A DNA stretch of 64,000 bases from assembly GCF_900188025.1 (NCBI RefSeq), contig NZ_FZNO01000004.1, positions 124,001 to 188,000 on the forward strand, written 5' to 3'. The DNA comes from Blastococcus mobilis. GTDB lineage: Bacteria; Actinomycetota; Actinomycetes; Mycobacteriales; Geodermatophilaceae. The translations under genes were made by a program, and so were the position numbers. The notes below the pieces were generated by a model. The model was not told where the DNA came from. It made no database searches and saw nothing but the letters and a program-made list of their open reading frames with translations. The first letter of the stretch is position 1, and every line of letters starts with the position of its first letter. Below, in pieces: positions 8,876 to 11,883 of this stretch.

Positions 8876-8890
8876 GGGCCTTTGGTCCCT
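8876..8890 (+). promoter_or_regulatory. DosR/DevR-type box upstream of usp
   Basis: GGGCCTTTGGTCCCT matches the symmetrical GGG-n-C n4 G-n-CCC pattern recognised by DevR/DosR-type regulators in actinobacteria. CATAAC at 8910-8915 could serve as the -10 hexamer, putting the box over the -35 region and the transcript start a few bases before the ATG at 8925. A devR homologue lies 3 kb away, which makes autoregulation plausible. This is a match by eye, not a scored motif. Confidence 0.5.
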
Positions 8891-8924
8891 GGGAGACCGC
8901 TGGACGTGCCATAACGATCGCCCC

Positions 8925-9470
8925 ATGAGCGAGATGCCGTCCCCCCGGGAACCTGAGCCGAGCCCGGAGACAGAGCTGCGGCCCACCGTCCCGTCGGCGT
9001 GGCCGGGTGACGGTTCGGCAGACGCCGCCCCAGCGGTCGGGCCGTTGCATCTCCCCCCGCTGCTGCCCCGCAGGCAGAACCCGTGGCTCATCGTCGAGGT
9101 CGACGGGTCGGCGGCCGCACACGGACCGTTGGTCTGGGCACTGCGTGAGGCCGCACGGCGAGAGGCGACCGTCGTCGCCGTGCTCGTGCTCGACGAGCCC
9201 GCCGGTGATCCTCTGGAGGGCTCGGGCCGGCTGCTCCTCCGCGCGCGGCTCTCCGCGCAGGAGCGACTGGAGGCGCAGGTCCTCCGGGCGATCGGGGAGA
9301 CCGGGGTGCACGGGCGGACCCGCACCGCGGTCCTCGACCGGCCGGTGTTCGAGGCGCTGACCGCCGCCACCCGCGGAGCCGATCTCGTCGTCGTCGGCAC
9401 CCACGGGAAGACCCTGCTCCGCCAGGCGGTCCCCCGACCTCCCACCCACCGGCTCGCACGTGGCGCCTGA
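8925..9470 (+). CDS. Universal stress protein family member
   Basis: 181 residues. After a Pro/Glu-rich N-terminus of about 45 residues comes a UspA fold: [10 protein letters not shown], a helix [18 protein letters not shown], and [11 protein letters not shown] near the end. The usual ATP-binding motif G-x2-G-x9-G(S/T) is only half present (GTHG, then no GS), so nucleotide binding is doubtful. The gene overlaps the following kinase gene by 11 bases, so the two are translated together. USPs are among the commonest DosR regulon members in mycobacteria, and a DosR-like box sits about 40 bases upstream, which suggests induction by low oxygen, NO or CO. Confidence 0.75.
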
Positions 9471-11223
9471 ACGCGGCGACTCTCCCTCCGGACCAGGGAC
9501 CGGTCCTCCCGCTCAGGGACCGGTTCCCGAGCCCGGCCAGGACTCCTACCGTCGGGCCGTGCCCCCGCCCGATCCCCTGGCCCCGCCGTCCGAGGGCGAC
9601 GTCCGTGCCGTGCCGGTGGTCACCGCGGCACTGCGGGCAGTCGCCTCCAGCAGCCAGCTGGAGGCCACCCTGCACGACATCGTGCACGCGGCGGTCCAGC
9701 ACGTGGATGCCCGCTACGGGGCCCTCGGGGTCCTGACGCCCGACGGCCGGCGGCTGGACCGGTTCGTCATCGTCGGCATGGGGGAGGAGGAGCGCGAGCG
9801 CATCGGGCGCCTCCCCCAGGGACACGGCGTCCTCGGACTGCTCGTGGACGAGCCCTCGATGCTCCGGCTCGACGACCTGGCCGAGCATCCGGCGTCGCTC
9901 GGTTTCCCGGAGGGGCACCCGCCGATGCGCTCGTTCCTCGGCGTCCCGGTGCACGTGGGCGAGGCGAGATTCGGCAACCTCTACCTCACGGAGAAGCGCA
10001 CCGGAGGTCCCTTCACCCCCGCCGACACCGAGGTGGCGCAGGCCCTGGCCGCCGTCGCGGGCGTGGCGATCGAGAACGCCCGGTTGGCAGAGCGGGCCGA
10101 GATCCGACGCAAGTGGGGGCAGGCGGCCACGGAGATGGCTGCGGCGCTGCTGTCGGGGGCCGATCCCGACCATGTGCTCCGGACGGTGTCCACCCGCGTC
10201 TCCGCCCTTGCCGACGCCGACGTGGCCGGTGTCCTGGCCCCGAGTGCCGATGATCCCGGGACGATGACCATCGTCGCCGCCGTGGGGTATGCCGCCGAGT
10301 TCGCCGAGGGGGTGCGCGTGCCCCTGGGGGGCACCCTGGTGGGTGAGACCCAGCAGGCGGGCGTGCCACGCCTCATCGACGACATCGACGCGATGCCGGT
10401 GGTCGGCACGCTCTCGGCGGTGGAGGTCGAGCTGACCGCGGGCTACGGTCCCGCCCTGCTGGTGCCGGTGGGCAGCGCCGCCCATCGCGGGCTGCTCGTG
10501 ATCATGCGACGGGCCGGGCGGGCGCCCTTCTGCCCCGACGAGCTGGAGCTCCTGTCGACCTTCGCGGCGCAGGCCACGGTGGTGCTGGAGCTCGCCCGCT
10601 CCCAGCAGCGGGCCCATCGGCTCCAGGTCCAGGCCGACCGCGACCGCATCGCCCGCGACCTGCACGACCACGTCGTCCAGCGCATCTTCGCCACGGCGCT
10701 CTCCCTGGACCGGCTCGGCCGATCCGTGGAACAGGAGCGTCCCGAACTGGCGGCCGGGCTCTCGCGCAGTGTCGACGACCTGCACGGCACGATCGCGCGG
10801 ATCCGCACGTCCATCTTCGAGCTCCACGAGGCGGGGGACGCGTCGGCGGCCGCCGTCCGGCAGCGGCTGGCCGAGGTGCTCCGCTCGGTGACCGAGGGTC
10901 ACGACGTGCGGCCGGACCTGCGGATCCGGAGCGAGCACGACGACCTGACGCCCGACCTGGTGCTGGACCTGGTGGCGGTGGTGCGGGAGCTGGTGACCAA
11001 CGTGGTCCGGCACGCGCGGGCCCGGCGGGTGACCGTGGCCGTGGACATCACCGACGCGGCCCGCGTGGTGGTGACCGACGACGGGTGCGGGCTGCCACCG
11101 GTCACGGTCCGCAGCGGGCTGGCCAACCTGGCCGACCGGGCCGAGCGGCGAGGCGGGCGACTGACCACGATGTCGTCGGGCTCGGGAACCGAGATCTGCT
11201 GGACCGCGCCGCTCCCGTCCTGA
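9460..11223 (+). CDS. devS: DevS/DosT-like haem-GAF sensor histidine kinase
   Basis: 587 residues, soluble. Two GAF domains (about 60-210 and 225-385) are followed by a HisKA_3 dimerisation domain with phospho-acceptor H402 in [11 protein letters not shown] and a HATPase domain with the N-box [11 protein letters not shown] and DDGCGLP. GAF-A closely resembles mycobacterial DevS, and H153 in [13 protein letters not shown] aligns with the DevS haem ligand H149, so it should sense O2, NO or CO through haem. The GTG start at 9460 lies inside the stress-protein gene. The likely partner is the convergent DevR-type regulator, whose stop is four bases away. Confidence 0.9.
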
Positions 11224-11226
11224 GCC

Positions 11227-11883
11227 TCAGCCGCTCGCGCGGTCGCGGAGCTCCGTCGCGAGGATCGCCGCCTGGGTGCGCCGCTCGAGGCCGAGCTTGG
11301 CGAGCAGATGGCTGGTGTAGTTCTTGACCGTCTTCTCCGCCAGCCCCATCCGGGCGCCGATCTGGCGGTTGGTGAGCCCCTCGCCGATCAGCCGCAGGAC
11401 GGTGCGCTCCTGATCGGTGAGCAGCGCCAGCCGGTCGCTGCCCGCCGCTCCCACCCCCCGGGCACGGGACACCGCGGGCGCGACCTCGTCGAACAGCACG
11501 CCACCGCCGGCGACCGTGCGCACCGCCGACGCCAGGGCCGGACCGCGCACCTGCTTGAGCAGGAAGCCCGACGCGCCCGCCTGCACCGCGGCGTCGAGCG
11601 CCTCTTGCTCGGCATAGCTGGTCAGGACCAGGCACCGCAGGCCGGGCACCTGACCGTGCAGCCGCCGCCAGAGGGCCGCCCCGTCGCCATCGGGCAGCCG
11701 CATGTCGATGAGGACCACGTCCGGTCGGACGGCGGGCACCCGTACCAGCGCCTCCGCGACCGATCCGGCCTCACCGACGACGGAGATGCCCGGGTCGTCC
11801 TCGAGCACCTCGGCCACACCGCGTCGGACGACCTCGTGGTCGTCGACGAGGAAGACGCGGACCGGCGCCGACTGAGTCTGCAC
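11227..11883 (-). CDS. devR: DevR/DosR-like NarL-family response regulator
   Basis: 218 residues from GTG 11883, chosen because GGGAGGGGG lies just upstream; a GTG at 11907 would add eight residues. The receiver domain has the acidic pair D14 D15 ([12 protein letters not shown]) and phospho-acceptor D60 in [10 protein letters not shown]. The C-terminal LuxR-type helix-turn-helix contains [22 protein letters not shown] and [17 protein letters not shown], very close to mycobacterial DevR. It should bind boxes such as the one at 8876. It converges with the kinase gene (3 bases between stops), unlike mycobacteria where the two genes are in one operon. Confidence 0.88.

Follow-up and report, generated by a model that had tools for sequence, protein, structure and literature searches.

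The 64-kb stretch of DNA from the soil actinobacterium Blastococcus mobilis (family Geodermatophilaceae) analyzed here (the window in the following) quite probably encodes a gas-sensing two-component system of the type of DosR, the oxygen-sensing dormancy switch of tuberculosis, with feedback on the kinase side and a core regulon of two promoters. Its features are as follows.

8876-8889, near-palindromic: DosR/DevR-type box GGGCCTTTGGTCCC
8913-8918, plus strand: predicted -10 hexamer of usp-devS, aACGAT, of the ANNNT type
8925, plus strand: predicted transcription start, the A of the usp ATG (from the distance between -10 and ATG)
8925-9470, plus strand: usp, 181 aa (Pfam Usp, E=1.3e-11)
9460-11223, plus strand: devS/dosS-type sensor histidine kinase gene, 587 aa (Pfam, structure match, and alignment)
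9652-10098, plus strand: haem-type GAF-A domain of DevS, aa 65-213
11224-11226: stop-to-stop gap of 3 bp between the convergent genes devS and devR
11227-11883, minus strand: devR/dosR-type response regulator gene, 218 aa, GTG start (3c3w match, conserved start)
11917-11922, minus strand: predicted devR -10 element TAGGCT
11955-13001, minus strand: type III polyketide synthase (PKS) gene, DpgA/chalcone-synthase-like (Pfam Chal_sti_synt)
13065-13772, minus strand: UbiG-like methyltransferase gene (Pfam Methyltransf_11, E=1.1e-17; UbiG model below cut-off)

A first-pass annotation of the window had described a DosR-like box ahead of usp, an overlap of usp and devS, and a convergent devR with three bases between the stop codons, all of which is confirmed from the sequence; the overlap measures 11 bp (9460-9470). 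What had been missed is that devR lies 71 bp behind a codirectional PKS gene. The methyltransferase gene is located further upstream on the minus strand. We refer to the 19 related loci together with the named Geodermatophilaceae loci as family loci. The order usp, devS, devR, PKS gene, with the first two genes facing the last two, is kept in all 24 Geodermatophilaceae loci examined. Of 20 relatives, 19 have a devS-devR gap between -4 and 42 bp, and the remaining one has a gap of 113 bp. Scans of the region revealed neither terminator-like sites, including the devS/devR and PKS-devR gaps, nor a single match to the sigma-70 consensus, both kinds of consensus scan being poorly suited to the B. 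mobilis genome. Given the tiny gap and the absence of a terminator-like site, overlap of the devS and devR transcripts is plausible at most. On the other side of the locus, most relatives examined have a divergently oriented GGDEF-EAL (c-di-GMP) gene (6604-8658, minus strand, in the window) upstream of the usp promoter.

The kinase DevS has the domain order GAF-GAF-HisKA_3-HATPase_c (Pfam) characteristic of the DosS/DosT family. Among solved structures, its GAF-A domain is matched best by DosT GAF-A (2vzw, E=6.6e-49), with DosS next. H153 (DosS H149), Y175 (DosS Y171), and the phospho-site H402 are invariant in an alignment of 17 DevS sequences. In DosS, H149 is the proximal haem ligand, and Y171, on the distal side, hydrogen-bonds O2 (PMC4082495). 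Furthermore, DevS G90 aligns with the position of DosS E87 and DosT G85, the proposed gas-channel opener. DevS is thus a probable haem-containing sensor of O2, NO, and CO. That it responds instead to a non-O2 signal, such as redox state or another ligand, and that the box answers this signal, appears distinctly unlikely. Such a reading would find precedents in the Streptomyces relative OsdK, the signal of which is unconfirmed (PMC5069765), and in the debate on DosS as a redox sensor (PMC4082495), but the invariance of H153 and Y175 and a channel glycine as in the O2-binding DosT argue against it. In one relative (L036 in G017), the GAF-A core has diverged, with several otherwise conserved stretches altered and box and gene order retained. 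In view of this domain, haem-based sensing may be missing from part of the Geodermatophilaceae.

The regulator DevR is composed of Response_reg and GerE domains (Pfam), i.e., a receiver domain with its phospho-accepting aspartate and a LuxR-type helix-turn-helix. Its best solved match is M. tuberculosis DevR (3c3w, E=8e-71), with VraR and NarL far behind. D60 is invariant in an alignment of nine DevR sequences, as are K184, K187, and N188 in the TVKN recognition-helix region, which we take to correspond to the DNA-contact residues K179, K182, and N183 of M. tuberculosis DevR. For K182, DNA contact has been described (PMC5999986). Domain content and the matches to DosT and DevR structures bear out the earlier assignment to a DosR-type module, and the alignments likewise bear out the retention of the haem ligand H153, the phospho-accepting H402, and D60. 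Since the genome contains only one full-length DevS and only one close DevR, the next response regulator being only 40% identical, the neighboring devS and devR are likely partners. The GTG start of devR at 11883, as already annotated, recurs at the same position in most relatives and is preceded by the Shine-Dalgarno sequence GGGAGGGGG at 11891-11899; for these reasons it was preferred over the start at 11907 of a mechanically listed ORF.

Within the 64 kb, GGGNCYTTNGNCCC is matched exactly only once, by the box GGGCCTTTGGTCCC at 8876-8889; 0.06 exact matches are expected by chance, and 6 of 100 shuffled sequences contain one. A box is found upstream of usp in each of the 24 Geodermatophilaceae loci (22 exact, two with one mismatch). 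Aligned on this element, the loci show a mean pairwise identity of 0.917 within it, as compared to 0.341 over the 40 upstream bases and 0.429 over the spacer; the T following the box is invariant, and so are two bases of the -10 element, an A and a T. In each of the 24 loci, this A and this T occupy precisely positions +24 and +28 relative to the box, and the usp ATG is located 35-37 nt past the box. As the usual distance from a -10 element to the start point is 6-7 nt, transcription is predicted to begin at the usp ATG, and the usp-devS mRNA is predicted to be leaderless. In mycobacteria, ANNNT -10 elements are widespread, and so are leaderless mRNAs (PMC6448022, PMC8022548). With 8925 as the start, the box would be centered near -42.5, and DevR would occupy a class II-like position overlapping the -35 region; class II activation and the sigma factor at this promoter are inferred. 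The predicted overlap resembles the situation in M. tuberculosis, where the proximal DevR site overlaps the -35 region (PMC3029386). When a loose box, the spacing, and the ATG are combined into one search pattern, the 5.1-Mb genome contains a single match, as compared to zero for the reversed control; as the pattern was derived from the usp site itself, this result shows specificity and is not an independent discovery. At the level of sequence comparison, recurrence in every family locus examined confirms that box, spacing, and gene order go beyond chance. The box is thereby supported as a conserved promoter element before usp-devS and a putative DevR target.

A second conserved box, GGGACYTTSGTCCC, belongs to an unlinked promoter and is located outside the window at C43:88363-88376 (G000; L180:1564-1577). 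Of the 16 congeneric genomes examined, including that of B. mobilis, 14 have it at orthologous places, with a spacing to ANNNT of 24 nt in 12 of these 14 and of 25 nt in one more. Downstream of it, a protein of 69-80 aa with a three-helix-bundle domain (NF046112) and an ABC-F ATPase are encoded. The strict combination of box, T, spacing, and ANNNT occurs at six places in the genome, the two conserved promoters included, and only these two show a TT core. Boxes at C19, C43:97017, C51, and C59 are not supported as regulon members, as they are not among the sites seen to recur in relatives; their neighbors (an uncharacterized ORF, an alcohol dehydrogenase, a transaldolase, and a 2Fe-2S subunit) suggest no shared theme.

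Box counts showed no excess, being at or below those of the reversed-pattern control in the 16 congeneric genomes, that of B. mobilis included. For this reason, the genome-wide count was discarded as proof of a regulon, the box sequence alone proves no DevR regulon, and a small core regulon is indicated. It appears to consist of the usp-devS operon and one other promoter, with weaker sites possibly missed. A many-promoter DosR regulon is not what the 16 congeneric genomes reveal, with box counts at background and two conserved promoters. The genome scan for the same box proposed by the first-pass annotation accordingly failed to exceed the control in number, but did uncover one further conserved site of identical geometry. 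Background counts, together with 30 response-regulator-like stretches of the genome that match DevR at E <= 0.001, would also be compatible with a box used by a regulator other than Blastococcus DevR. We regard this as very improbable: the DNA-contact residues K184/K187/N188 do not vary among the aligned DevR sequences, the box matches the published DosR consensus GGGACTTNNGNCCCT save for one base (PMC6448022), and it precedes the unit of the partner kinase in every locus. For high-GC soil actinobacteria, in which consensus scans alone drown in background, the rule of box, 24 nt, and ANNNT offers a precise and testable description of DosR promoters.

A different promoter is seen at devR. Between the PKS stop and devR, which are 65-112 bp apart, a TAnnCT -10-like element is found in 20 of 20 loci, and no conserved DosR box was detected in this gap in the same 20 loci. 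This supports an own, box-less promoter of devR, as had been anticipated with respect to the separate promoter; read-through from the PKS gene could feed devR as well. It is possible, though rather unlikely, that read-through from the methyltransferase and PKS genes is even the main source, such that the regulator level follows that operon. The PKS gene is codirectional, 71 bp upstream and beside devR in every family locus examined, and the gap is free of terminator-like sites. Against this stand the Shine-Dalgarno sequence that follows the TAnnCT element in all 20 gaps and, in several relatives, a palindrome right after the -10 element, as expected of a regulated start. At the devR promoter, which we favor as the main source, this palindrome is an exact TGTGAN6TCACR (CRP-type consensus) directly after the -10 element in seven relatives (L020, L021, L022, L023, L028, L032, and L034), and a CRP/FNR-type palindrome with one mismatch occurs at devR in L019 and L026. 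The devR leader of B. mobilis has no CRP/FNR-type palindrome, which was either lost or never present. An additional input at devR would not be without precedent: in M. tuberculosis, the dosR locus is acted on by Cmr, a CRP/FNR protein (PMC5499769). The PKS and methyltransferase genes next to devR (11955-13772, minus strand) also raise the possibility of a link between a small polyketide or quinone product and the hypoxia switch.

In M. tuberculosis, the genes form the operon Rv3134c-devR-devS, with a Usp-type gene behind DevR boxes (PMC4082495, PMC3029386, PMC5069765). The Blastococcus unit likewise is headed by a Usp-type gene behind a DevR-type box, and both systems combine a haem GAF-type kinase with a NarL-type regulator that has the same DNA-contact residues. 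However, usp, regulator, and kinase share one operon in M. tuberculosis, such that DevR autoregulates itself, whereas devR of Blastococcus is encoded on the opposite strand, lacks a box, and meets devS tail to tail. The contrast to mycobacteria drawn in the first-pass annotation thus holds for the convergent regulator, but was overstated, as a Usp-type gene heads the M. tuberculosis operon too and convergent pairs recur elsewhere. In addition, M. tuberculosis possesses a second kinase, DosT, and a regulon of about 48 genes, as compared to one kinase and two conserved sites in Blastococcus. No regulator adjoins DosT, which is an orphan kinase. The Blastococcus kinase resembles DosT in the best solved match of GAF-A, the channel glycine, and an asparagine before the distal tyrosine, and differs in adjoining its regulator and in lying behind a putative DevR box. 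OsdR-OsdK of Streptomyces coelicolor, orthologous to DevR/DevS, also has a related palindromic box and usp genes as targets (PMC5069765), but forms an osdR-osdK operon with the box upstream of osdR and a consensus spacer GATC in place of TT.

Convergent devS/devR pairs with short gaps also occur in Lentzea, Amycolatopsis, Pseudonocardia, Streptomyces, Herbidospora, and others, in these actinomycetes without a nearby polyketide synthase gene. The ORFs upstream of these other convergent devS loci gave zero Usp matches, the ORFs having been picked mechanically and their frames possibly being wrong. The 80 named DevS loci comprise 19 with a convergent devR, 10 with a codirectional devR upstream, 4 divergent ones, and 47 lacking a close DevR; these proportions are not a census, as the loci were picked by similarity to Blastococcus DevS. 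Convergent pairs are found on both sides of the DevS tree, with at least three state changes between convergent and other orders. Judged from these comparisons, the convergent layout is recurrent, and particular to the Geodermatophilaceae is the coupling of usp and devS behind the box in combination with the PKS-devR neighborhood. The same spread over many genera and repeated change of order would fit a layout devoid of regulatory meaning, i.e., an ordinary DosR locus with shuffled genes, both arms of which respond alike. This reading is fairly improbable, given that within the Geodermatophilaceae the box is always found at usp and never as a fixed element at devR. Among the papers covered, a literature search for Geodermatophilaceae together with DosR retrieved none, and neither did a looser one. 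The parts of the system are well known, but their wiring departs from that of the textbook operon in a way that is kept throughout the family; the general surprise is modest.

Based on these findings, we favor a system with feedback on the kinase side. O2 would probably keep DevS inactive, and a drop in O2 or the binding of NO or CO would activate it, whereupon DevS would phosphorylate DevR at D60. Phosphorylated DevR would bind the box at 8876-8889 and, in a class II-like position centered near -42.5, recruit RNA polymerase to the -10 element at 8913-8918, giving rise to a leaderless usp-devS mRNA (promoter geometry from comparison, start predicted). Usp and extra kinase would be made and the signal thereby amplified, while devR would be transcribed from its own box-less promoter, possibly with added PKS read-through, such that the supply of the regulator is set independently. 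Positive feedback most likely runs via kinase and Usp and not via the regulator. A farther-reaching version is put forward tentatively, as we consider it somewhat more doubtful than not: throughout the Geodermatophilaceae, only sensor and Usp would be under positive feedback, the regulator would come from a separate promoter tied to the PKS gene as well as, for many relatives, to a site of the CRP/FNR type, and the conserved regulon would have shrunk to two promoters, the second one upstream of an ABC-F translation factor.

We propose the locus as a naturally occurring counter-example to the mycobacterial operon and its autoregulation, with the same sensor, regulator, and box, and with feedback on the kinase instead. 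A comparison of the Blastococcus and mycobacterial wirings could show how each kind of feedback affects threshold, speed, and memory of a dormancy switch.

As for Usp itself, the motif G-2x-G-9x-G(S/T) of ATP-binding universal stress proteins is absent in 13 of 13 aligned family members. The C-terminal tail LLR.AVPR....RLARGA is conserved, and its coding sequence overlaps the devS start.
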